From the NCBI RefSeq assembly GCF_003014485.1, contig NZ_PYGA01000005.1, positions 1 through 64,000 of the forward strand: a stretch of 64,000 nt of DNA. The letters run 5' to 3'. Made by a program: the position numbers and the translations under genes. This DNA comes from Murinocardiopsis flavida (GTDB taxonomy: Bacteria > Actinomycetota > Actinomycetes > Streptosporangiales > Streptosporangiaceae). Positions 64-61,219 of the stretch are shown here, piece by piece. Each line of letters opens with the position of its first letter. The stretch's first letter is position 1. The notes below the pieces were generated by a model. It saw only the letters and a list, made by a program, of their open reading frames with translations. It had not been told where the DNA came from and searched no databases.

Positions 64-421
64 TATATGTTCTTCTTACAGGGATGACCAGGTATAGTTC
101 GGCTAATCTGGTGCCGTTTCCCTTGTTGTGGCGCCATGGGCGGGGGCCGTTGATTCGGTCGGTTCCGTTCAACCTGCGACCGTTTCCGCGTCGGTGCAGC
201 TCAGGGGCCCGTCGCCGCCAAGCAACGGGCTTCCCCGCGACCGGCCAAGGGCACATCCTCGACACCCGACCGCCGACCGCGACCGCGACCGTCCACCGCC
301 ACCCGTGGCCGCGTCCTCAACGCGCTCGTAGAGAGCGGTCCGCGATGCGGTCCGCAATGTCCCGACCTGGGGGCGACACGGCGGGGGTGCCCTCGGTGGC
401 GGGGTGTGGGGCACGTCAGGT

Positions 422-435
422 TTACTTACGAGTAA
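422..435. promoter_or_regulatory. Putative TetR-type operator before the thiolase
   Basis: TTACT and AGTAA form a perfect 5-bp inverted repeat around the spacer TACG, about 50 bases before the thiolase start. This spacing is typical of TetR-family operators, and fatty-acid degradation genes in actinobacteria are often under such repressors. No TetR gene adjoins it, so the regulator would act from elsewhere. Confidence 0.45.
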
Positions 436-483
436 CAAACGGGCCGGCCGGTCCGGGAAGACCAGCAGAGAAGGGCCGCGAGC

Positions 484-1707
484 ATGCCTGAAGCCGTCGT
501 CGTCGCGACCGCGCGCTCCCCGATCGGACGCGCCTTCAAAGGGTCGCTGAAGGACATCCGCCCCGATGACCTCACCGCGCAGATCATCGGCGCCGCGCTC
601 GCCAAGGTGCCGGAGCTCGACCCCGCAACAATCGACGACCTGCTGCTGGGCTGCGGCCTGCCGGGCGGCGAGCAGGGCTACAACCTCGCCCGGGTCGTGG
701 CCGTGCAACTCGGGCTCGACACCGTGCCGGGCGCCACCATCACGCGCTACTGCTCGTCGTCGTTGCAGACCACCCGAATGGCCTACCACGCCATCAAGGC
801 CGGCGAGGGCGACGTGTTCGTGTCCGCCGGGGTCGAGACCGTGAGCCGGTTCGTCAAGGGCAGCAGCGACTCCCTGCCCGACACCAAGAACCCGAAGTTC
901 GCCGACGCCGAGGGGCGCACGGCCAAGCGCGCCGAGGGCGGCGCCGACACCTGGCGCGACCCGCGCGGCGTCAACGAGCTGCCCGACGTCTACATCGCCA
1001 TGGGCCAGACCGCAGAGAACGTCGTGCAGACGCGCGGCATCTCGCGGCAGCGCCAGGACGAGTTCGGGGTGCGGTCGCAGAACCTCGCCGAGAAGTCCTT
1101 GGACAACGGCTTCTGGGATCGGGAGATCACCCCCGTCGCGCTGCCCGACGGCACCGTCGTCAGCGCCGACGACGGCCCCCGCCGCGGGACCAGCTACGAG
1201 AAGGTGTCCACCCTGCAACCGGTGTTCCGCCCCGACGGGACGGTGACCGCGGGCAACTGCTGCCCGCTGAACGACGGCGCGGCCGCCGTGGTGATCATGA
1301 GCGACGCCAAGGCCGCCGAACTGGGCATCACCCCGCTCGCGCGCATCGTCTCCACCGGGGTGAGCGCCCTCAGCCCGGAGATCATGGGCCTGGGCCCGGT
1401 CGAGGCGTCGCGCCAGGCGCTGGCCCGCGCGAACATGGCGATCAGCGACATCGACCTGGTGGAGATCAACGAGGCGTTCGCGGCGCAGGTGCTGCCCTCC
1501 GCCGATGACCTCGGGATCGACATCGACGCGCGGCTCAACATCAACGGCGGGGCGATCGCGGTCGGCCACCCGTTCGGCATGACGGGTGCGCGCATCACGA
1601 CCACGCTGCTGAACGGGCTCGACTTCCACGACAAGACGTTCGGCCTGGAGACCATGTGCGTCGGCGGCGGGCAGGGCATGGCCGCCGTGTTCGAGCGCCT
1701 GAGCTAA
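484..1707 (+). CDS. Acetyl-CoA acetyltransferase / thiolase
   Basis: A 407-residue thiolase, close to the usual 390-410. It would cleave 3-ketoacyl-CoA with CoA in beta-oxidation, or condense two acetyl-CoA, in the cytoplasm. The nucleophilic cysteine is Cys90 in RYCSSSLQ. NEAFAA lies near residue 329, the catalytic histidine near 361 in AVGHPFGMTG, and the second cysteine near 392 in MCVGGGQG. The ATG at 484 follows a purine-rich GAGAAGG. The gene stands alone: no hydroxyacyl-CoA dehydrogenase or acyl-CoA dehydrogenase is next to it. A TetR-type inverted repeat at 422-435 suggests fatty-acid-linked control. Family is certain; chain-length preference cannot be told. Confidence 0.93.
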   Translation: MPEAVVVATARSPIGRAFKGSLKDIRPDDLTAQIIGAALAKVPELDPATIDDLLLGCGLPGGEQGYNLARVVAVQLGLDTVPGATITRYCSSSLQTTRMAYHAIKAGEGDVFVSAGVETVSRFVKGSSDSLPDTKNPKFADAEGRTAKRAEGGADTWRDPRGVNELPDVYIAMGQTAENVVQTRGISRQRQDEFGVRSQNLAEKSLDNGFWDREITPVALPDGTVVSADDGPRRGTSYEKVSTLQPVFRPDGTVTAGNCCPLNDGAAAVVIMSDAKAAELGITPLARIVSTGVSALSPEIMGLGPVEASRQALARANMAISDIDLVEINEAFAAQVLPSADDLGIDIDARLNINGGAIAVGHPFGMTGARITTTLLNGLDFHDKTFGLETMCVGGGQGMAAVFERLS

Positions 1708-1792
1708 GACGCCAGGGCCCCGGGCACAGCGCCGTCACCTTCGCCGGACCCGCCCACTGCGGGCGGCGAACCTGTGCCCGGGGTCTGGCGCC
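1708..1792 (+). terminator. Large nested hairpin after the thiolase
   Basis: Starting at the base after the stop codon, an arm of about 20 bases at 1708-1729 pairs with 1772-1792 with one bulge. Inside it TTCGCC/GGCGAA and CCCGC/GCGGG pair again. It is much longer than a normal terminator. It probably ends or protects the thiolase transcript. Confidence 0.55.
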
Positions 1793-2086
1793 CCAACCGC
1801 ACCGTGGTGCTTCGCATCCGCGGCGGCGGCGAACCCCTGCCCGCGGGCGTGACGCGAGGCGGCCCCGACGGCGTTATGCGCGTAGAGCAGGGCATTCATC
1901 GCGAATGCCCTGCTTTGGCCTACCATGCCCGGCTTCACCTGGCTTGATATCAAGGCACCGGTTCGTTGACCGCACGGTGAACTCTGTTCCCGCGAAAGTC
2001 GTGCAAAAGCTCGGCTCCAGGCCTTGTCCAAATCGAGATCCTGTTGCACTGTCGCTGTTAAGTGCCGCTCACTCTCGGAGGTGCCA
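1793..2086. other. Non-coding gap with a second hairpin
   Basis: No supported gene. A perfect 12-bp inverted repeat at 1886-1914 is listed separately. The last 50 bases hold the promoter and leader of the DUF4287 gene, ending in the ribosome site CGGAGG. Confidence 0.5.
1886..1914 (+). terminator. Hairpin terminator
   Basis: AGCAGGGCATTC and GAATGCCCTGCT pair perfectly around the loop ATCGC and are followed by TTGG. The stem is strong and there is no U-tract, as is common in actinobacteria. Together with the nested hairpin upstream it insulates the DUF4287 gene. Confidence 0.6.
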
Positions 2087-2329
2087 ATGTCGGTAACCCA
2101 CTCGCCGGAGACTCACGCGCTGCTTATCGCCAGAATCCCGTCCGTCACAGGCCGCGAACTCCACGAGTGGTTCGACCAGCTGGAAAAGGGTCCGGGCCTG
2201 GCCCGCTGCTCAGAGCGCACCAATTGGCTGGCTGACGAGCACAACCTCAGCCACGGCTACGCCCAGGCCATCGTCCAGGAGTTCGACCGTCGCCGCCGCA
2301 ACCGGACCGTGCCGCTCCCGCGGCGCTGA
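2087..2329 (+). CDS. DUF4287 domain protein
   Basis: An 80-residue protein of the DUF4287 family, recognised by IPSVTGRELHEWFDQLEKGPG followed later by NWLADEHNLSHGYAQAIV. The family has no established function; its members are small soluble proteins common in actinobacteria and proteobacteria. The ATG at 2087 was chosen because CGGAGG sits seven bases upstream; a longer frame begins at 2024 but lacks a ribosome site. The C-terminus is basic (RRRRNR). It is a single-gene unit between hairpins and the convergent Bax-inhibitor gene. Confidence 0.8.
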   Translation: MSVTHSPETHALLIARIPSVTGRELHEWFDQLEKGPGLARCSERTNWLADEHNLSHGYAQAIVQEFDRRRRNRTVPLPRR

Positions 2330-2427
2330 GCCGTTCCGGCCAACTGTCCCCAGAGGTACGCGAGCAACAGGGAGCGCGCCCCGCCCGGTCGGACCGGGCG
2401 GGGCGCGTTCGTGCGTTGCGGTGGCGG

Positions 2428-3366
2428 CTAGTCGCCGCTGAAGATCATCTGGATCATCCACAGCAGGCGCAGGATCTCGACGTAGATCCACACGAGCGTG
2501 ATGGTGAGCCCGAAGGCGCACTGCCACGCGAACTTGCGCTCGACACCCGCGGTGAGGGCGTCGTCGATCTGCTTGAACTCGATGAGCAGCATGGCGCAAG
2601 CCAGGATGATGGCGATGGCGCTGACGGCGATGCCGAGCGGCGACGGCTCGCGCAGCCCAAGGCCGCCGTCGATGAAGAAGCTGAGCAGGAAGTTCACCAG
2701 CAGGAAGGCGACCAGCGCGACGGTCGCGCCGATGACCACCTTCATGAACGTGCCGGTGACCCGGATGATGTTGAACTTGTAGAGCGCGAGCACCGTGGCG
2801 AACGCGAAGATGGTGCCGAAGACCGCACCGGTGACCAGCGACCCCATGGGCGTGCCGCCCACCCTGCCGGGGAGCATCTGTTCGAACACGGCGCTGATGC
2901 CGCCGACGAAGAGCCCTTCAAGCGCGCCGTAGATCAGGATCAGCGGGGCGCTGGTGGACTGCTTGAAGCCGATGATCAGGCCCAGGATCAGACCGCCGAT
3001 GGCGCCGATCATCGTGAGGCCGATGCCCAACCCGGGGTCGCCCCAGGTGAGGAAGTACGTGGGGACGGCGGTGAGGATCAGCACACCCAAGGTCATTGCG
3101 GTGCGGACCACGACGTCGTCGATGGTCATCTGCCCGCCGGCGGGCGCGCCCATCTGCGGCGGGTACATCTGCTGGCTGTACGGGTCCTGGCCGTACTGGG
3201 TCTGACCGTAAGGGGACTGGCCATAGGGGGACTGGCCGTAGGGCTGCTGCCCGTAACCCTGCTGGTACGGGGCTCCCTGGCCGTAGGGCGCCTGGTAGGA
3301 CTGGCCGGGTCCCCCCTGCCGTGCAATCGCCCGCTTCAAGACGGGGTTGGAACTCCGCATCCGCAT
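2428..3366 (-). CDS. Bax inhibitor-1/YccA family membrane protein
   Basis: A 312-residue protein with a hydrophilic N-terminal third and seven predicted membrane segments from about residue 90 to the end, the pattern of the BI-1/YccA family (bacterial relatives are pH-sensitive calcium leak channels or protease modulators). Residues 22-70 are an unusual Gly-Tyr-Gln-Pro tract with repeats of the type QSPYGQ, encoded by a small tandem DNA repeat near 3205-3245. Such cytoplasmic tails are common in actinobacterial membrane proteins. The start at 3366 and an in-frame ATG two codons later are both possible; no strong ribosome site separates them. It stands alone. Confidence 0.88.
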   Translation of the reverse strand: MRMRSSNPVLKRAIARQGGPGQSYQAPYGQGAPYQQGYGQQPYGQSPYGQSPYGQTQYGQDPYSQQMYPPQMGAPAGGQMTIDDVVVRTAMTLGVLILTAVPTYFLTWGDPGLGIGLTMIGAIGGLILGLIIGFKQSTSAPLILIYGALEGLFVGGISAVFEQMLPGRVGGTPMGSLVTGAVFGTIFAFATVLALYKFNIIRVTGTFMKVVIGATVALVAFLLVNFLLSFFIDGGLGLREPSPLGIAVSAIAIILACAMLLIEFKQIDDALTAGVERKFAWQCAFGLTITLVWIYVEILRLLWMIQMIFSGD

Positions 3367-49676: not shown

Positions 49677-50624
49677 TCAGGTGAGGAAGAACTCCCGTGC
49701 GGAGCGGGCGATCGCCGCCGTGTCGAGGCCGTGTGCGCGGTCGTGGTCGGCGGGGGTGCCGTAGCCGCGCACCTCGTTGTCGCGGGCCACGCCCAGGGAC
49801 GCCTGGCGGTGCCGGCGGTCCGCGAGCGCCTCGGCGACCTCGCGGCTCGACGTGCCCTCGAGGTAGGGCTCGACCATCAGCACGTCGGGGTGGCCGGCGG
49901 CGGCCGCGACCCGGTTGAGGCCGGCGCGGTCGAACGGGCGGACGGTCGCCGCGTAGCAGACGGTGACGTCGAGCCCTGCCGTCGCCGCGAGCACGCGGTC
50001 CAGCATGGGGCCGACGGCGACGACGGTGCCGAGCGAGCGCGCCGAGCCGGCGCGCACGACGACGAGGCCTTCGCCGACCGGGCGGGCCGCGGCGTTGCCG
50101 CGCTCGGTGAGTCGCACGTACACGCGGCCGTCGCCGGCGAGCGCGGGGCGCAGCAGCTTGGGGACCTCCGCTGCGTGGCCGGGGACGTGCACGGTCCAGC
50201 CGGGCAGGGTGTCGAGCAGGGCGACGTCGCCGGGCGCCATGTGGGTGCGGCCCATTTCGGCGCCGTCGTAGGACGCGCCGATGCCGACCAGGACGGCGCC
50301 GACGCCCTGGTGGCCGAGGTCGAGCTTGATCTGTTCGAACGGGCGCTCGATCAGGAACGGCGCGTAGGTGTGCACGACGGGCCGCATCCCGGTGAGGGCG
50401 AATCCGCCGGCGGCGCCGATGAGGAGCTGTTCGCGGATCCCCACGTTGACGACCCGGCCGGGGTGGCGGGCCGCAGCCTCGGCGAACCGGTCGGCGGAGA
50501 TGTCGGCGAGCAGGACCGCGATCCGGGGGTCGTCCGCCATGGCCTGGGTGACGGTCGCGGCGAACGCGTCGCGCATCGGCTGGGCCGTCACTGCGGCGGG
50601 GATCTCGCCTGCGGCGAGTGTCAT
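49677..50624 (-). CDS. Transketolase C-terminal subunit
   Basis: A 315-residue protein with the pyrimidine-binding and C-terminal domains of transketolase. It has VNVGIREQLLIGAAGGFALTG near residue 72 (the Glu that activates thiamine diphosphate) and VEPYLEGTSSREVAEAL at the end. It pairs with the N-terminal half encoded 25 bases upstream, so the two-gene transketolase type found in archaea and some bacteria. The ATG at 50624 follows AACAGGAG; an in-frame ATG at 50642 is the alternative. Divergent SoxR control is likely. Confidence 0.9.
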   Translation of the reverse strand: MTLAAGEIPAAVTAQPMRDAFAATVTQAMADDPRIAVLLADISADRFAEAAARHPGRVVNVGIREQLLIGAAGGFALTGMRPVVHTYAPFLIERPFEQIKLDLGHQGVGAVLVGIGASYDGAEMGRTHMAPGDVALLDTLPGWTVHVPGHAAEVPKLLRPALAGDGRVYVRLTERGNAAARPVGEGLVVVRAGSARSLGTVVAVGPMLDRVLAATAGLDVTVCYAATVRPFDRAGLNRVAAAAGHPDVLMVEPYLEGTSSREVAEALADRRHRQASLGVARDNEVRGYGTPADHDRAHGLDTAAIARSAREFFLT

Positions 50625-50649
50625 CGCGGGGCTCCTGTTCATCGGGTGT

Positions 50650-51339
50650 TCATCGGGGTGCGACGGCGGCGACGACGGCGAGCGGGCGGCCGGCGTGGGG
50701 TGCGCCGAACGCCTCGGCGAGCGCGCGGTGGTCGCGCCCGTCGACGGTGCGGGCGGCCCAGCCTTCGCGGGTGAAGCGGTCGGCGATCCCGCCGGGCCAC
50801 CCGTGGGTGGCCGACTGGTTGTCGATGACGACGGCGGTGAGGCGTTCCAGCCCGAGCCGGCCCGCGACGGCGATGGCCTCGTGGTTGCTGCCCTCGTCGA
50901 GTTCCGCGTCGCCGACGAGCACCACGGTGCGGGGTGCGGTGCGGCCCTGCGCGCGCAGCCCGAGGGCGGTGCCCAGGCCGAGTCCGAGGCCGTGGCCGAG
51001 TGATCCGCTGGCGATCTCCACACCGGGGATGAGGGCACGGTCGGGGTGGTGGCCGAGCGAGGAGTCGAACGCGGCCCAGTCGCGCAGCGATCGGACGCCG
51101 ATGAAGCCTTTGGCGGCGAGGACCGCGTAGTAGGCGGCCGGACCGTGGCCCTTCGAGAGCAGGAACCGGTCGCGGTCGGGGTCGTCGGTACGGCCGGGTG
51201 CGACGTCGAGGACCTGGTCGTAGAGCACCCAGAGGACGTCGAGTGTCGACGCCGACGCGGCCTGGTGCTTCCGGTCGCCGGTCATGAGCCCGATGAGCGC
51301 CGGGAGGTCGGCGTACCGGGAGAATGTGGCGGTGGTCAT
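50650..51339 (-). CDS. Transketolase N-terminal subunit
   Basis: A 229-residue thiamine-diphosphate-binding half of transketolase. The conserved LLSKGHGPAAYYAVLAAKG, GSLGHGLGLGLGTALG and VLVGDAELDEGSNHEAI (Gly-Asp-x-Glu metal site) and ID-N are visible. It forms an operon with the C-terminal half. The ATG at 51339 has GGGTGG upstream. A near-consensus SoxR box lies between it and the divergent soxR gene. The role could be in sugar-phosphate supply or a small-molecule pathway; no other pentose-phosphate gene is near. Confidence 0.9.
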   Translation of the reverse strand: MTTATFSRYADLPALIGLMTGDRKHQAASASTLDVLWVLYDQVLDVAPGRTDDPDRDRFLLSKGHGPAAYYAVLAAKGFIGVRSLRDWAAFDSSLGHHPDRALIPGVEIASGSLGHGLGLGLGTALGLRAQGRTAPRTVVLVGDAELDEGSNHEAIAVAGRLGLERLTAVVIDNQSATHGWPGGIADRFTREGWAARTVDGRDHRALAEAFGAPHAGRPLAVVAAVAPR

Positions 51340-51353
51340 GGCGCCACCCTGAT

Positions 51354-51373
51354 ACTTCTAGTTAACTTGAGGT
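51354..51373. promoter_or_regulatory. SoxR box
   Basis: ACTTCTAGTTAACTTGAGGT matches the SoxR operator ACCTCAAGTTAACTTGAGGT at 18 of 20 positions, including the central AGTTAACT. It lies in the 69-base gap between the transketolase N gene and soxR, placed to control both. Confidence 0.75.
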
Positions 51374-51408
51374 CAATACCGAGGACGCAACGGAGAGCGA
51401 GAAGTGAT

Positions 51409-51870
51409 ATGAGTCACCTTCCGGTCCGGCTGACCATCGGCCAGCTCGCCGAGCGCAGCGGGGTCCCGCACAGCACGCTGCGCTTCTACGAGGACCGCGG
51501 GCTCATCCACTCCGAACGGACGGCCGGCAACCAGCGCCGCTACCACCGCGCCACCCTGCGGCGCCTGGCGTTCATCAGCGCGGCGCAGCGGGTCGGCCTC
51601 ACCCTCAACCACATCCACGAGGCGCTGAGCGAGCTGCCCGACGGGCGCACCCCCACCGTCGCCGACTGGACACGGCTCTCCGACGACTGGCGGATGGAGC
51701 TCGACACCCGCATCGACGCCCTCCAGCGCCTGCGCGACCGGCTGACCTCCTGCATCGGCTGCGGCTGCCTGTCGCTGAAGTCCTGCGGGCTCCAGAACGA
51801 CGACGACGCCATGGCCGCCTACGGCCCCGGGTCCGCGATGCTGCGCCCGGCGAGCGAGGGCGGCATGTGA
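51409..51870 (+). CDS. soxR: Redox-sensitive MerR regulator SoxR
   Basis: A 153-residue MerR protein with helix-turn-helix TIGQLAERSGVPHSTLRFYEDRGLI and the [2Fe-2S] cysteine motif C-x2-C-x-C-x5-C in CIGCGCLSLKSC (about residues 119-130). This identifies SoxR, which activates target promoters when its cluster is oxidised by redox-cycling compounds. The ATG at 51409 is preceded by GGAGAG further upstream. Divergent from transketolase with a SoxR box between. In actinomycetes SoxR usually controls transporters and oxidoreductases rather than soxS. Confidence 0.94.
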   Translation: MSHLPVRLTIGQLAERSGVPHSTLRFYEDRGLIHSERTAGNQRRYHRATLRRLAFISAAQRVGLTLNHIHEALSELPDGRTPTVADWTRLSDDWRMELDTRIDALQRLRDRLTSCIGCGCLSLKSCGLQNDDDAMAAYGPGSAMLRPASEGGM

Positions 51871-52828: not shown

Positions 52829-53129
52829 AGCGGTCACGAGTCCTAGATCGTAAAGGAAGCACTCCACCAGTGAACCCACAGACGCGCGGGGGGCCGGGCC
52901 GCCCACGGCCGTTCCCCCTCCCGCCCGGCGGTTCCCGCGCGGCCTCGCAACGGACTCCGTGCGGCCGCGCCGCCCCCGGACCGCGGCGCCGGTCCGTGCG
53001 CACGGCCGCTCCGCACGCATCCACCGGAAACTCCCTACGGCTCCACTGGCCTGCGCGGGTGGGTATCGGGGCGCAATGCCCGCTACCTTTGGGGCCAGGC
53101 GGAGTTTGGTAACCGTCGGGGAGGGTCGC
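52829..53129. other. Divergent region between ispE and the Ser/Thr kinase
   Basis: No gene seen. It contains only GC-rich sequence and the GGGGAGG ribosome site used by the kinase at 53118-53124. No operator was recognised. Confidence 0.45.
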
Positions 53130-55094
53130 TTGCCGTCGGATGGGCTCCCGAAGGATCTCGAACCGCTGAACGCCGGTGACCCGGCGTCCATCGGTCCCTA
53201 TGTGCTGTCCGGACGCCTTGGCAGCGGGGGGATGGGGACGGTCTACCTTGGCCGCTCCCCCGAGAAGAACGCCCAAGTGGCGATCAAGGTCATCCGCCCG
53301 GAGCTCGCGTTCGACGAGGCCACCCGGGCGCGGTTCCACGACGAGATGGAGAACGCCCGCAGGGTCGCCTCGTTCTGCACGGCGAAGGTCCTCGACCACG
53401 GCACATTCGAGAACCGGCCGTACATGGTCACCGAGTACATCGCCGGCACCGGGCTCGCCGAGCACATCGCCAAGAACGGCCCGCTCGACTCCAGCACCCT
53501 GCACGGCTTCGCGCTCGGTGTCGCGGCGGCCCTCGCGGCCATCCACAAGGCCGGCCTGGTGCACCGCGACCTCAAGCCCGCGAACGTCATCCTGTCGATC
53601 TCCGGGCCGCGGGTCATCGACTTCGGCATCGCCCGTGCGATGAACACCGCCACCAACCACACCCAGACCGGCATCGTCATGGGCAGCCCCGGCTGGATGG
53701 CGCCCGAGCAGCTCCTCGAGGAGAAGGTCACCCCCGCCGCAGACATCTTCGCGTGGGGCTGCCTGGTCGCGTTCGCCGGCACCGGCGCGCACCCGTTCGG
53801 CAACGGCGACGCGATGACGCTGGGCAAGCGGGTGCTGTTCGCCGAGCCGCAGATCAGCGGGCTCGACAGCCCGCTCGACCGGCTCGTCCCCAAGGCCCTC
53901 ACCAAGGAGCGCGAGCGCCGGCCCAACGCCCAGGACCTGCTGCTCGAACTCGCCGGGGGCGGCCCCGAGGCCAGCGACGCCCACGACATGGTGAGCAGCG
54001 CGCTGTACCGGTCGTGGCGGCCCAACCTGCCCCCGATGCCGCCCATGCCGCCGCAGGGCCACCCCCAGGGCCCGCCGCAGGGTCCGCACCCGCAGGGCCC
54101 GCCGCCCAACCAGCCCAACCCCAATCAGCCCAACCCCAACCAGACCGGTTCGGGGCTGCACCGCCCCGGCCCGCAGCCCGTTCCGCCCGTCGGGCCGCCG
54201 CACCCGCCGCCCAACCAGCAGCATTACCCGGGGCAGCCGCACCAGCAGGCCGCGCCGCCGCCCCCGGGCCCGCCCATGCCCAACCCGGCGTTGCAGAGCC
54301 AGCCGATGCAGCGGCCGGTGCACCAGACCGGCCAATTCGCCGCCGTCCCCCCGAACCCGGCGCACACCGGCCCCATCCCGCGGGTGCCCGGCCCCAACGC
54401 GCCCCCGGTCCAGGCGCCCACCGGCGCGCGGCCGCAGGCGCAGCCCTACGTCCCCCCGGTCCCGCCGCCGCCGCACGCCCCTGTGCAGCCCACGGCGAAA
54501 CGGCGCCTCAAATGGCTGGCCGCCGCGGTGGTCGCCGCCATCGTGCTGCTCCTCGTGCTGTACGGGGTGCTGAACTACATGGGGCCCGGCGGCGTCGCGG
54601 GGATCACCAGCGGCAGCAGCGAGGCCGACACCGGCGAGAAGGGCGGCGAGGCCCCCAAGGCCGGGCCCGAGGTCCCCGCCGACGCGGTGGGCGGCGGCAA
54701 GGACGGCCCGATCTTCTTCGTCGTGCACGGCTACGACTGCCGCGGCACCGACGAGGACCGCGTCGCCCAGCCCGAGAACGGCAGGTTCTGCACCTTCCGG
54801 GTCGAGGCGCGCAACACCTCGGACGACACCACCCGCATCGACCCCCAGTGGCAGGCGCTGCGCGACTCCAGCGGCGGTTCGCCGAACATGCCGCTCGAAC
54901 CCGTCAGCGGCCGCCCGGAGCGGCTGTTCGAGACCATCGAGGCCGGCCGGAGCGTCGAGGGCGAACTCGTCTTCATGGTGCTCGACGGCCTCGACCCCGC
55001 GACCCTCATCCTCCGCGGCACCGACTCCAGCGAGGGCCTTGAGGTGCCCCTCCGCGGGAACGGGACCCGGTCCCAGGGCGGCCGCCCGGCGTAG
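53130..55094 (+). CDS. Ser/Thr protein kinase with extracytoplasmic DUF4352-like domain
   Basis: A 654-residue transmembrane kinase. The cytoplasmic domain (about 20-280) is complete: glycine loop GRLGSGGMGTVYLG, Lys in VAIKVIR, HRDLKPAN, DFG and APEQ. A Pro/Gln-rich juxtamembrane region (about 285-460) is unusual, with repeats such as PNPNQPNPNQ and PQGP. One membrane helix lies near 470 (LAAAVVAAIVLLLVLYGV). The outside part has a DUF4352-like fold with GYDCRG and FCTF. The start is a TTG at 53130 following GGGGAGG; a longer frame from the ATG at 53076 is possible. Signal unknown. Confidence 0.92.
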   Translation: MPSDGLPKDLEPLNAGDPASIGPYVLSGRLGSGGMGTVYLGRSPEKNAQVAIKVIRPELAFDEATRARFHDEMENARRVASFCTAKVLDHGTFENRPYMVTEYIAGTGLAEHIAKNGPLDSSTLHGFALGVAAALAAIHKAGLVHRDLKPANVILSISGPRVIDFGIARAMNTATNHTQTGIVMGSPGWMAPEQLLEEKVTPAADIFAWGCLVAFAGTGAHPFGNGDAMTLGKRVLFAEPQISGLDSPLDRLVPKALTKERERRPNAQDLLLELAGGGPEASDAHDMVSSALYRSWRPNLPPMPPMPPQGHPQGPPQGPHPQGPPPNQPNPNQPNPNQTGSGLHRPGPQPVPPVGPPHPPPNQQHYPGQPHQQAAPPPPGPPMPNPALQSQPMQRPVHQTGQFAAVPPNPAHTGPIPRVPGPNAPPVQAPTGARPQAQPYVPPVPPPPHAPVQPTAKRRLKWLAAAVVAAIVLLLVLYGVLNYMGPGGVAGITSGSSEADTGEKGGEAPKAGPEVPADAVGGGKDGPIFFVVHGYDCRGTDEDRVAQPENGRFCTFRVEARNTSDDTTRIDPQWQALRDSSGGSPNMPLEPVSGRPERLFETIEAGRSVEGELVFMVLDGLDPATLILRGTDSSEGLEVPLRGNGTRSQGGRPA

Positions 55095-55167: not shown

Positions 55168-56049
55168 TCAGGATTCGGGGCGGTTCTCGGCGATTCGGGC
55201 GAATTCGGCGATGCCCAGCGCCTCGCCGCGCGCCGAGGGGTCCACCCCCGCCGCGCGCAGCGCCGCCTCGGCGGCGGGCGCCGACCCCGCCCACGACGCC
55301 AGTGCGGCGCGCAGGGTCTTGCGCCGCTGCGCGAACGCGGCGTCGACCGCAGCGAACACCGCCTCGCGCGGCGCCGTCGACACCGGGGCGTCGCGGCGCA
55401 CGAACCGCACCAGCCCGGAGTCGACGTTGGGCGCCGGCCAGAACACGTTGCGGCCGATGGCACCGGCGCGGCGCACATCGGCGTACCAGGCGGCCTTCGC
55501 CGACGGCGCGCCGTAGGTGCGCCCGCCCGGCCCGGCCGCCAACCGGTCGGCCACCTCCGCCTGCACCATGACCAGCCCGCTGCGCAGCGACGGCAGCAGC
55601 TCCAGCAGGTGCAGCAGCATGGGCACGGCCACGTTGTAGGGCAGGTTCGCGACGAGGGCGGTGGGGGCGGGGCCCGGGAGTCCGGGGATGCGCACGGCGT
55701 CGGCCGTGACGACCGACAACCGGTCCGCCACCGCGGGGGCGTGCTCGGCGACCGTGCGGGGCAGCGCCTCGGCGAGCACGGGGTCGATCTCCACGGCGGT
55801 GACGTGGCCGACGTGCGGCAGCAGCGCCAAGGTGAGGGAGCCCAGGCCGGGGCCCACCTCCACGACGACGTCCTCGGCGCCGACCTGCGAGGCGCGCACG
55901 ATGCGGCGCACGGTCCCCGCGTCGACCACGAAGTTCTGGCCGAGGACCTTGGTCGGGCGCACGCCCAGGCGGCCGGCCAGGACGCGCACGTCGGCGGGGG
56001 TGAGCAGGCGGGCGTCGCCGGGGGTCGCTGAGTCGGTCACCCGCGCCAT
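55168..56049 (-). CDS. rsmA: 16S rRNA adenine dimethyltransferase (KsgA)
   Basis: A 293-residue enzyme that dimethylates A1518 and A1519 of 16S rRNA during 30S maturation. The S-adenosylmethionine motif is [17 protein letters not shown] near residue 62, EID follows, and the base-flipping [11 protein letters not shown] is near 134. The C-terminal domain has [10 protein letters not shown]. The start at 56049 gives a protein beginning [18 protein letters not shown]; a GTG three codons on has better spacing to AGGA. It is convergent with a kinase gene. Confidence 0.95.
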
Positions 56050-56196: not shown

Positions 56197-58059
56197 GTGT
56201 GCGACGTGCATCCCCACCCCCCGCTGGGCCCGGAATCCGCCCCCGACCGCTACCGACCCGTGCGGTTGCTGAGCACCCCCGACGAATCCCCGCTGCTCCT
56301 CGCCGAGCAGCAGGTGGCCGACGCCGTCGAGGCCGTGCTGATCCGCGTGGTCCCCGCCGCCGACGCCGCACCGGCGGGCGCGCCCGCCGACCAGGTGCGC
56401 GGCGCGAGCAGCGGCGTGGCCGGGTTCCTGGAGCGGTTCACCGCCGAGGTCGCGCCGCCCGGCGCCGCCCCGCAGCGCGCGCTGGTCCTGGTGGCCGAGT
56501 ACCCGGGCGGTGTCGGCCTGCGCGCCTGGCGCGCCGAACTGATGCGCGGCCCCGTGCAGGACATGCGCACGGCACTCGACCCGATGCGCGGTGTCGCGGC
56601 GGCGCTCGACGCCCTGCACAGCGGGCAGGCCCACCCTGACGGGCGCACGGTGGTCGTCGGCTCCCTGTCCCCCGGCACCGTCATGGCCCTGCCGCAGTCC
56701 GACGGCGTCCCGGTCGACTTCGGCCTCGGCCCGCGGCAGGACCCCGCGCTGCCCCCCGGCCGGTGGCTGACGTCGGGCTATGTCGCGCCGGAGGTCGCCG
56801 AGCACGGGTACTCCGCCGGCAGCGACCGCTACGCGTTCGGCGCCACCTGCTTCTTCGCGCTCACCGGCCAGGAGCCGCCGCCCGATGCCGCCGGGCTGCG
56901 CGAGCGGTTCGCCGCGCTGCCGCCGGTCGACGGTGCTGCCCCCGAACGGCACGCGCGGCTGCTGGCGATGTTCGGCGACGACCCCGCCGCGCGGCCGCCC
57001 GCGGCCCAGTGGCTGCGGGACCTGACCGGTTCGGCATCGCCGGCGCCGCCCGCGGCACCGGCTCCCGCCGCCGCGGTGCCCGCGGCGCCCGCGGCGTCCC
57101 CGGCGGGGGCACCGCCCGCGGCGCCAAAGGGGTTCCGCCGCCGCCGCACGACGCTGCTCGTCACCCTGGCGGTCGCCACCGTGCTGATCCTGCTCGGCGC
57201 CTCGGTGGTCACGTACCGGATGCTGGCGAGCGGGAGCGGCGCGAGCGCCGCCACACCCCCCGCGTCCGACCGGTCGTCGGGCCGCGAGACCCCGACCGCC
57301 CGGCCCGCGTCGGAGGACGGCTCGGTGCGCGACGACGGCAGCATCGCGACCGGCGACCTCGGCGCCGACCTGCCCGTCGTGGAGGTCTACACCGACTACC
57401 AGTGCGCGAAGTGCCGCACGTTCATGAAGAGCAACGGCGACGCGCTGGCCGGGCTCGCCGCCGACGGCGACGCCGTCGTCCACTACCGGCCGGTGAGCGT
57501 TTTCGCCCAGCGGCTCGACCCGCTGGCGGCGAACTCGCTGCGCGCCGGGGCCGCCGCCCGCGCGGCAGCCGACCACGGCAGGTTCGTCGAGTACAGCGAA
57601 GTCCTGTTCGCCAACCAGCCCGCCGAGGGCGAGGAGGGCTTCACGACCGCCGACCTCAAGAAGTGGGGCGCCGAGGCGGGGATCGACGACCCCGCGTTCG
57701 CCGACCGGGTCGAATCCGAGGGCAAGGCCGCCGAGAAGTACGTGTCCTACGTCGAGGAGCTCGTCGAGAAGGGCGGGGTCCACTTCGGCGCCGAGCGCTT
57801 GCAGACGATGCCGTTCGAGGAGCTGGCCGCGTGGGGCGCCGACAACGGCGTCGACGACGGCTTCCTGGACGACACCTACGTCGCGCAGGTCCTCGACGCC
57901 ACCACCGCGGTGAACAAGCGCTACGCCCCCGGCGACGGCCGCGACGCGTTCTCCGGCGCCCCGTCGGTCTACATCAACGGGCGCCTCCAGGACGCCGACC
58001 GCCCGGCCGCGCTGCGCAAGGCCGTCGGCGCGGCGGGGGCGGGCACGCTCGCCGACTGA
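56197..58059 (+). CDS. Pseudokinase-membrane-DsbA-like fusion protein
   Basis: A 620-residue single-pass protein of uncommon architecture. The N-terminal domain (about 1-275) is a degenerate Ser/Thr kinase: it keeps VDFGLG, the APE-like YVAPEVAEHGYSAGSDRYAFGATCFFALTG, and the overall order, but the HRD loop reads VVVGSLSPGTVM and the glycine loop and catalytic lysine are not evident, so it should be inactive. After a Pro/Ala linker and one membrane helix (about 317-337) comes a DsbA-like thioredoxin domain (about 375-610) with TDYQCAKCRTFM (CxxC). The start is a GTG at 56197, with weak ribosome site. It follows the ispE-rsmA region. Confidence 0.85.
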   Translation: MCDVHPHPPLGPESAPDRYRPVRLLSTPDESPLLLAEQQVADAVEAVLIRVVPAADAAPAGAPADQVRGASSGVAGFLERFTAEVAPPGAAPQRALVLVAEYPGGVGLRAWRAELMRGPVQDMRTALDPMRGVAAALDALHSGQAHPDGRTVVVGSLSPGTVMALPQSDGVPVDFGLGPRQDPALPPGRWLTSGYVAPEVAEHGYSAGSDRYAFGATCFFALTGQEPPPDAAGLRERFAALPPVDGAAPERHARLLAMFGDDPAARPPAAQWLRDLTGSASPAPPAAPAPAAAVPAAPAASPAGAPPAAPKGFRRRRTTLLVTLAVATVLILLGASVVTYRMLASGSGASAATPPASDRSSGRETPTARPASEDGSVRDDGSIATGDLGADLPVVEVYTDYQCAKCRTFMKSNGDALAGLAADGDAVVHYRPVSVFAQRLDPLAANSLRAGAAARAAADHGRFVEYSEVLFANQPAEGEEGFTTADLKKWGAEAGIDDPAFADRVESEGKAAEKYVSYVEELVEKGGVHFGAERLQTMPFEELAAWGADNGVDDGFLDDTYVAQVLDATTAVNKRYAPGDGRDAFSGAPSVYINGRLQDADRPAALRKAVGAAGAGTLAD

Positions 58060-58071
58060 GCGGGCGCGGCC

Positions 58072-59100
58072 CTACCCTGCCGCCCCGCGGCGCCCCGCGG
58101 CGACCGGGCCGCCGCGCGCGGGCGGCGCGTCGAGGATGTGGGCGAAGTCGTCGGCGAGGTCGCCCAGCAGCCTGCGTCCCTGGTCGGTCGCGACGTGGCG
58201 GACCCGGTTGCGGTTGCGGCTGCTGGTCATCAGCCCGGTGTCGCGCAGCACGGCCACGTGGACGCTGACCGTGGGCTCGGAGATGTCGAGCAGGCGCGCG
58301 AGCTCGCCCGTCGTGCTCCCCGCGACGGCGCCCTCCAGCACCTGCGCGCGGGTGTGGCCCAGGAGCCGGGCAAGGGCGTGGCGTTCGCGCGCGGCGGTGC
58401 CGTCCCTGCGGCCGGGCGGGTCGGCGGGGACATGCGCCGGGTACACGAGCACCGGCGGCAGCTCGGGGTCGAGCACCGTGATGGGGTACCTGCGGCAGAA
58501 GAACGACGGCACGAGGGTCAGGGTCCGGCCCCGCAGCCACACGTCGCGCTCGTCGGGGTAGGCCACCTCCAGCACGCCGCCGCGCCATTGCGCGTGCGGT
58601 CCGAACGCGACGGGCAGTCCGCCGCCGCCCGGCGCGCGGCCCACTGCCACGGCCGCGTCGATGCGGTCCCAGTGGGGCGCGAGGGCCAGCCCGTAGTAGG
58701 AGCGGACCGCGCGGGCGAGCCCGGTGAGCGCCGACCCGTCGCGCATCAGGCCGCCGGCGACGCCGGAGCCGCCGTGCTCGGCGATGAGGTGCGCGAGGTC
58801 GTCGTGGACGCGGCGGCGCGGGGTCCGCAGCAGGGCGTCGATTCCGCGGTCGAGCCCGTCGCCCTCGCAGTAGGGCGTGAGGAAGTCCGGGGAGTAGCCG
58901 GTGGGCGGCGCCAGCGACGCCAGCGCCCACATGCCCGGTGTCATGCGGGCGTACACCCCCGCCCGCCACCGCTCGTACGCGGTGCCGCCGGCGGCGCCGA
59001 GGAGCAGGTGCAGGCTGAGCAGGACCTCCCACATCGGGTCGGGCGCCGGGGCCGAGGCGACGGGCTCCCTGCGGTCGTCGGAGAAATGAAAACGCAGCAA
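58072..59100 (-). CDS. DUF5937/ArsR-type winged-helix regulator
   Basis: A 342-residue protein with an N-terminal DUF5937-like domain (MLRFHFSDDRREPVAS..., MWEVLLSLHLLLG) and a C-terminal winged helix of the ArsR type: TTGELARLLDISEPTVSVHVAVLRDTGLM near residue 280. The start is a TTG at 59100 with GGGAG six bases upstream. No gene next to it is an obvious target. Convergent with the fusion gene. Function inferred only as transcriptional regulator. Confidence 0.85.
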   Translation of the reverse strand: MLRFHFSDDRREPVASAPAPDPMWEVLLSLHLLLGAAGGTAYERWRAGVYARMTPGMWALASLAPPTGYSPDFLTPYCEGDGLDRGIDALLRTPRRRVHDDLAHLIAEHGGSGVAGGLMRDGSALTGLARAVRSYYGLALAPHWDRIDAAVAVGRAPGGGGLPVAFGPHAQWRGGVLEVAYPDERDVWLRGRTLTLVPSFFCRRYPITVLDPELPPVLVYPAHVPADPPGRRDGTAARERHALARLLGHTRAQVLEGAVAGSTTGELARLLDISEPTVSVHVAVLRDTGLMTSSRNRNRVRHVATDQGRRLLGDLADDFAHILDAPPARGGPVAAGRRGAAG

Positions 59101-59660: not shown

Positions 59661-60860
59661 CTACAGGTGCTTGCCGCACTCCGGCCACTGGCTCTGCCAG
59701 TTGCCGTCGACCATGTTGTAGAGCTTCTTCGCCCGCATGGTCTGCTCGCTGGGGCTGGCGTCGCTGGGCAGCCCGCTGCCCCCGGTGGACGCCCAGGTCT
59801 GCTCGGAGAACTGGTACAGGCCGTAGTAGCCGCCCGCGGAGTTCACGGCCTTGGGGTTGCCGCCCGACTCGCACTGCGCGAGGCCGGCCCAGTTCAGGGA
59901 GTCGGCGGGGCCGCCGACGTCGGAGTCGACCTCGGGCGCCTCCTCCTTGGTGCCGACCTCGGTGATGCCCTTCACCGGCTTCTTCAGCACCTTCTCCTTG
60001 AGGACGTGCTCGGTCTTCTTGCCGCCCTTCATGACCGTCGCGACGGTGACCTTCTTCTTGCCGTCCTTGGGCTTGCGCACGACCTTCTTCTCCCCCTTGG
60101 GGAGGTCGTCGTTCTCGCGCGTCTGGACGCCCGCCTCGATGGGCACTTCCTTGGTCTTCGGCTTGCCGATCACCTGCATGACCTTGATGACCATGCCGTC
60201 GGTGGGTTCGGTGGCGGCCTTGGGCTTGACCTTGTCGTACTTGCCGAGGTCGATCCCGTTCTCCTTGAGGACCTCGCCCACGGTGGGCTCGGTGCTGGAG
60301 ACCTTCTTCTTCTTGGTGTCCTGCTGGATGACGAGGTCGCGTGCGCTGCGCGCCGTCACCTCGAGGCCGGACTTGGGGACCGCAGCGGTGCGCTTCACGG
60401 ACAGCGACATCGGCTCCTTGTGCTTGCCGATCTCTTTCAGCGCCTCGTCGACGGTGAACGCGGTGACCCAGTGCGACTTGGCCTTGCCGTCGAGTTCGAG
60501 GGTGAACTTGCGGCCGGTGCGCACCTCGACGTCCTGGCCGCGGCTCACCTGGGTCCCCGCCGCGGGCACGACCTTGTCGTGCTCGCCGAGTTCGACCTCG
60601 GCGGACTCCAGGACGTCGGCGACCGACGAGCCGAACGTGTGCACCGTGCGGTCCTTGCCGTCGACGGTGAGGGTGATCCGCTTGTCCATGGCGAACGCCG
60701 TTCCGCCGCCCGCGAGCAGCAGGACGACCAGTACGGCGGCGCCGATGAGGAAGCCGCGCGAGCGCAGCAGCGCGGGGATCCGGGACGGTGTGCGCGCTCC
60801 CCTGCGGGGGCCCTGGGGCGGGCCCTCGGGGGCAGGAAACGGTTCGGGAGGAGTGGACAC
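59661..60860 (-). CDS. Resuscitation-promoting factor, RpfB type
   Basis: A 399-residue secreted or membrane-anchored cell-wall hydrolase. A membrane/signal segment at about residues 34-55 ([19 protein letters not shown]) is followed by three DUF348 repeats, a G5 domain ([19 protein letters not shown] region) and the C-terminal Rpf transglycosylase domain ([25 protein letters not shown], ending WPECGKHL). It remodels peptidoglycan and supports growth resumption. The GTG at 60860 follows AAGGAAAG. It lies upstream of rsmA-ispE as in most actinobacteria. Confidence 0.94.
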
Positions 60861-61219
60861 GATGTGTTGGCTTTCCTTCGCGGGCGAGGGACGCCGGGGG
60901 CGTGTCCCGGCGGGAGGGAGCATCTCCGGCCGTCCGTGGAGCGAGCGGGGTCTGCTGGACGGCGGGCCCCTGGCGGCGACTCTACGGCCGTCCGCGCGGG
61001 AACCGGCACGGATCGCGTGGAGCGGCCGCCCCACGCCACGGAAATTATCACGTCAGACCCAATGACGGTTACGGAAAGTCCGTAACCGCACACCGCGGGT
61101 CGTGCGCCGACCGCCGCTACCAGCGGCGCGGCCGACGGGCGGCGCCGCCGAGGGTGCGGACCCCCGAGAATGGGGTAATCCGATTTCTTCGCCGGCCCTC
61201 AATCCCGGAGGTTGCGTTC
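60861..61219. promoter_or_regulatory. Divergent region between rpf and the CoA-transferase
   Basis: It contains the 9-bp inverted repeat GGTTACGGA/TCCGTAACC at 61067-61087, 12 to 40 bases from a -10-like GATAAT on the minus strand (61044-61049). These likely form the rpf promoter. The repeat contains GTAACC-like text similar to MtrA sites, which are known to control rpf genes. No c-di-AMP riboswitch was recognised. Confidence 0.5.

Follow-up and report, generated by a model that had tools for sequence, protein, structure and literature searches.

The window, a stretch of 64,000 nucleotides from Murinocardiopsis flavida (contig NZ_PYGA01000005.1), carries on its forward strand a gene (56197..58059) whose 620-aa product joins a pseudokinase, a linker, a transmembrane (TM) helix and a DsbA-type domain. 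Its start codon is GTG, and this start agrees with that of a kinase paralog in the same genome, L003, in which GPxS.PDxYR is found at the same distance. The reading frame has a GC3 of 0.957 and a codon-position composition matching that of the neighbouring genes. From the kinase-like domain (residues ~10-280; 56224..57036), a Pro/Ala linker leads to a single TM helix (residues ~318-340; 57148..57216), which appears as the one strongly hydrophobic stretch of the protein (residues 320-338, mean hydropathy of 2.7) and as a helix at residues 316-345 in the AlphaFold2 model, while the DsbA-type domain occupies residues ~376-616 (57322..58044). As RRRR lies ahead of the helix, the orientation should be N-in/C-out, with the kinase half inside and the thiol domain outside. 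When the full-length protein was modelled by AlphaFold2 with 34 relatives, a bilobal kinase fold, the TM helix and a thioredoxin-type domain were obtained (mean pLDDT of 71.5). As far as sequence and models predict, the product is a single-pass membrane protein with a cytoplasmic pseudokinase and an extracytoplasmic DsbA-type domain. An earlier, sequence-only reading had assigned a kinase half, a membrane helix and a thiol half to this frame; its coordinates were exact, Pfam and AlphaFold2 agreed with it, and the check that it proposed, structure prediction of both halves, returned a kinase fold and a DsbA fold.

Neighbourhood and distribution

The fusion gene is flanked by a divergent ksgA (55168..56049, reverse strand) and by a convergent gene for an ArsR-type HTH regulator (58072..58989, reverse strand), beyond which lies an rpf-like gene of the G5/resuscitation-promoting-factor type (59661..61034, reverse strand). 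In three related genera the rpf-type gene comes immediately after ksgA, so that the fusion gene and the ArsR-type regulator are, judging from this gene order, a lineage-specific insertion into a conserved slot. The HTH gene was considered as a partner of the fusion and rejected, as it is convergent and its family is common elsewhere; with ksgA as the only other neighbour, no candidate partner adjoins the fusion gene. Further upstream in the window, a PknB-like active kinase (53055-55094, forward strand; HRD, DFG) with a TM helix and a DUF4352-like outer domain occupies a place next to ksgA/ispE that is conserved in related genera. Moreover, a MerR-type regulator (51265-51870, forward strand) contains CIGCGCLSLKSC, in which the cysteines are spaced as in the redox sensor SoxR (CX2CXCX5C), and adjoins two transketolase-like genes on the opposite strand (49677-51339).

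Six-frame searches of 31 genomes, among them one of the same genus, others of neighbouring genera and six of the genus of N. suaedae, found no second kinase-DsbA fusion of this type. Furthermore, 84,980 species genomes were scanned twice and yielded no ortholog of the fusion, loci being returned only by the scan with the kinase half; these scans relied on pattern peptides, so diverged fusions lacking them could escape. The fusion gene is therefore known from one genome, without an ortholog among the genomes searched. On the other hand, in five genomes of one genus (N. suaedae, N. endophytica, G027, G028 and G030), an active-type HGDLSPGN kinase gene and a separate TM-DsbA gene adjoin each other and share a strand. 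At these loci (L022, L039, L040, L132 and L133) the DsbA gene comes first and the kinase gene follows after a gap of ~0.2-1 kb. These neighbours form a candidate two-gene redox-kinase pair, commoner than the fusion; the syntenic slot holds another kinase gene in G000 and G006.

Kinase half

The Pfam Pkinase profile matched residues 96-229 with 20 bits, under the cut-off of 31.7, whereas the model of the kinase half had the bilobal fold of Hanks-type kinases (Pkinase clan), with VIA-align Z-scores of 19.6, 17.7 and 17.1 against M. tuberculosis PknI, PknA and PknB, respectively, and Foldseek E-values of ~1e-8 to PknB/PknA. A search of the viral fold library returned generic kinases only. One close relative of this half occurs in the same genome, the kinase-TM-PDZ protein L003 (688 aa; 415-2481, reverse strand), which has active-type motifs and a C-terminal PDZ domain and is the closest kinase paralog (41% identity). 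The genome-collection scan added 80 further loci, mostly from Nocardiopsis, Streptomonospora, Actinorugispora, Thermobifida and Streptomycetaceae, none of which has a DsbA domain within the kinase frame. L003 and the HGDLSPGN kinases of Nocardiopsidaceae and Streptomyces share with the fusion the N-terminus and the order of kinase, linker, TM helix and outer part (~35-45% identity), but their Lys, HGD, Asn and DFG are intact; the kinase half looks like a paralog of these membrane kinases. Weak kinase matches in other genera were also considered as further pseudokinases, and the readable ones (L121, L123 and L126) proved to be ordinary HRD kinases. A long-branch relative from Nocardiopsis ansamitocini (L035, 6001-6936) has otherwise intact catalytic residues, and one relative of the set, possibly the same one, reads DYG for DFG.

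Catalytic residues were compared over 83 aligned relatives. The ATP-binding Lys (K72-equivalent), the HGD Asp, the catalytic-loop Asn and the DFG Asp are present in 83/83 of them, and the first three are lost only in the window protein. In particular, R50 replaces the Lys (56344..56346), and the former catalytic loop (56650..56679) reads VVVGSLSPGT, continuing with V, against VVHGDLSPGN in relatives, with changes of H to V154, D to S156 and N to T161. The Gly-rich loop is degenerate (56269..56286; STPDES vs. GRGGEA), and ten residues are deleted around helix C at 56365..56376, where relatives read ...EEQFAELSxRWxEQAELLRF..., the AlphaFold2 model being disordered at residues 61-71 of this region. 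In contrast, DFG (residues 174-176; 56716..56724) and APE (residues 197-199; 56785..56793) are retained. The sequence-only reading had called this half a pseudokinase, without an evident lysine and with DFG and APE-like motifs, and the comparison with relatives and the structure models bear it out on each point; regarding the HRD loop that it found missing, the Asp is truly lost, while the missing Arg means nothing, since the whole family of relatives has HGD.

Two of the three residues by which a pseudokinase is recognized in sequence (the Lys, the HRD Asp and the DFG Asp) are thus gone, and of the set expected of an active Ser/Thr protein kinase (Lys, catalytic Asp and Mg-binding Asn) none is left, by which the kinase half is predicted to be catalytically dead. 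The joint loss of the Lys, the Gly loop, the helix-C region, the catalytic Asp and the Asn would make even ATP binding doubtful. These losses weigh against an unconventional enzyme, in which this half would have another activity (e.g. AMPylation or glutamylation) or residual kinase activity through the DFG Asp; SelO and SidJ offer precedents (PMC12599244, PMC6858067) and DFG is retained, but we regard such an enzyme as very improbable. Overall, 68 of the 115 positions with a conservation of at least 97% among relatives are kept (59%), the lowest proportion of the set, the next lowest relative keeping 87%. The N-lobe was hit harder, with 21/45 conserved positions kept compared to 47/69 in the C-lobe (Fisher P-value of 0.03).

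DsbA half and origin of the fusion

The thioredoxin fold with CxxC that had been read from the sequence of the outer half was supported by several lines of analysis. Pfam Thioredoxin_4 (PF13462) matched residues 381-521 with an E-value of 3e-8, over the cut-off; the active-site motif is CAKC (residues 403-406; 57403..57414), and the cis-Pro is P589 (57961..57963), within GAP-SVYING. When modelled alone, with only three sequences, the domain was predicted as a thioredoxin fold with the inserted helical domain of DsbA proteins (pLDDT of 77.7, pTM of 0.78), closest to M. tuberculosis DsbA (Z of ~21, rmsd of 2.4 over 173 residues), with MdbA also close. Of the 56 positions invariant in Nocardiopsidaceae relatives, 51 are kept, compared to 51/53 in the true DsbA paralog L002. 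However, the dipeptide of the CxxC is AK, without the usual Pro (lgt-linked relatives have CPAC), and the Thr before the cis-Pro, found as GTP in most relatives, is changed to Ala. This atypical site would suit a DsbA domain devoid of exchange activity, whose sole task would be to sense a bound ligand or client for the pseudokinase. We consider this remote, since the fold is right and still holds both Cys and the cis-Pro.

The paralog L002 is a stand-alone TM-DsbA encoded between a MauE/DoxX-type membrane gene (named from sequence) and lgt, with orthologs in related genera. These lgt-linked proteins resemble the DsbA half in fold, CxxC and cis-Pro (51-55% identity for L002), but have CPAC and GTP and are free of a kinase. 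A row of MauE/DoxX-type membrane gene, TM-DsbA and lgt (L117, G000:C34, 4986-7759) is probably the ordinary disulfide system of the genome. A VKOR gene is also present, giving the genome an electron partner that a DsbA could use.

In trees, the DsbA half was placed nearest to L002 with a weak support of 82/88, or 67/71 with more rows, and the AU test did not reject a grouping with the kinase-linked DsbAs (p = 0.18). Synonymous differences of the DsbA half were 0.15 to L002 and 0.26-0.37 to other genera; genes of the same genome share codon bias, but the kinase half shows no such effect (0.37 to its own paralog L003, 0.41 to Streptomyces). At codons of conserved residues, synonymous differences amounted to 19/129 between the DsbA half and L002 and to 40/108 between the kinase half and L003 (Fisher P-value of 9e-5). 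dN/dS was uninformative for this gene, because a GC3 of 0.96 saturates and biases dS. From these sequence comparisons, it is likely that an old kinase paralog captured the dsbA of its own genome fairly recently.

In the tree, the kinase half ends in a branch of ~10 changes per column, an extreme divergence. This acceleration, together with the loss of the Pro of CPxC and the occurrence in a single genome as a lineage-specific insertion without an ortholog among the genomes searched, could indicate a gene that is being lost, in which an old kinase copy, dead beforehand, was joined by chance to a recent copy of dsbA without coming under useful selection. Such decay is unlikely, given the 620 open codons with their high GC3 and native codon-position pattern, and given that the near-equal synonymous divergence of the kinase half to L003 and to Streptomyces suggests a long-lasting open frame. 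A stronger contender, possible although not the favoured one, is a DsbA anchored in the membrane whose cytoplasmic part is passive, where the fusion gave the duplicated dsbA a promoter, a start and a TM anchor and the kinase remnant is only a folded anchor. The better conservation of the DsbA half (51/56) than of the kinase half (68/115) fits this reading, as does the TM helix of the lgt-linked paralog, membrane tethering being normal for such DsbAs; against it, the structural residues of the C-lobe persist together with DFG and APE while the N-lobe bears the heavier loss, and the models still predict a kinase fold with confidence.

Proposed role and known systems

The most likely role, ranked first although held tentatively, is that of a thiol oxidoreductase or redox receptor that is tethered to the membrane and has a non-catalytic pseudokinase as its scaffold. 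The outer DsbA domain would still carry out thiol-disulfide exchange and would be recharged by the VKOR of the genome or by the MauE/DoxX partner of the lgt-linked paralog. Its redox or client-bound state could then be relayed via the TM helix to the pseudokinase, which, unable to phosphorylate, would be a binding or dimerising scaffold; its targets may be the active kinase paralog or FHA-type partners, by analogy with the mycobacterial MviN pseudokinase. Support for this coupled scaffold comes from the catalytic losses against 83/83 intact relatives with 47/69 C-lobe positions kept, from the intact, natively coded frame with its predicted kinase fold, from the conserved, M. tuberculosis DsbA-like outer half in a genome with VKOR and the MauE/DoxX-dsbA-lgt cluster, and from the pairing of kinase and membrane DsbA elsewhere, as the PknE fusion and as neighbours in the genus of N. 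suaedae. Counted against it are the single genome without an ortholog, the AK dipeptide without Pro, the lack of an adjoining partner gene and the extreme divergence of the kinase half, which could also stem from relaxed constraint. The sequence-only reading had proposed that the thiol state of the envelope is linked to a scaffold in the cytoplasm, and this remains plausible. A more specific version, about which we are more doubtful, is a dedicated envelope redox receptor, an independent pseudokinase counterpart of PknE in which the dead kinase reads the thiol state of the outer DsbA and, acting in trans, controls a partner that is either an active kinase or of the FHA type.

The architecture itself had not been recognized as described in that reading, which was mistaken: PknE (Rv1743) of M. 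tuberculosis, linked to the nitric oxide response (PMC3792642, PMC1262709, PMC3140968), has been published with a cytoplasmic kinase, a single TM helix and an extracytoplasmic DsbA-like domain (PMC3792642, PMC1262709). The layout is the same in PknE, which also has an N-terminal Hanks kinase and a C-terminal outer domain with CxxC. The active-site motif is CPPC in PknE and CAKC in the fusion, and PknE, whose kinase domain has been solved (2h34), is described as a Ser/Thr protein kinase, whereas the sequence of the window protein indicates a dead one. In the profile of the fusion's kinase family, PknE (2h34) scored 47.6 bits, under PknA (70.9) and PknB (67.2), which suggests, at the level of profile scores, that both fusions may have arisen independently. 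What is new here is therefore the catalytically dead kinase and the apparently independent fusion; no published pseudokinase-DsbA fusion was found in the open-access literature.

Among other known proteins, the actinobacterial DsbA and MdbA proteins (M. tuberculosis DsbA, Rv2969c, 4k6x/4jr6, a measured oxidase (PMC3792642); MdbA, 6bo0 and 5c00) resemble the DsbA half in fold (Z of 19-21), but have no kinase attached and only 17-28% identity. A recent review of bacterial pseudokinases covers TM pseudokinases with scaffold roles, such as MviN, and does not mention a DsbA/thioredoxin domain or fusion (PMC12599244). The actinobacterial TM pseudokinases MviN/ActPs3 share with the fusion a dead kinase domain on a membrane protein, the scaffold role being that of MviN (PMC12599244). 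However, they are described as having all catalytic motifs degraded and an activation-loop deletion (PMC12599244), unlike the fusion, which keeps DFG and APE; this comparison was made from their published description. With the fusion confined to one known genome, the reach of the case is limited and confidence in it is moderate. In Actinomycetota, kinase and DsbA have come together at least twice by fusion, in PknE and in the window protein, and once as adjacent genes. Such repeated joining points to a real, little tested functional connection of the disulfide chemistry of the envelope with signalling by Hanks kinases, and a protein whose kinase is dead would allow a scaffold role to be told apart from phosphorylation.
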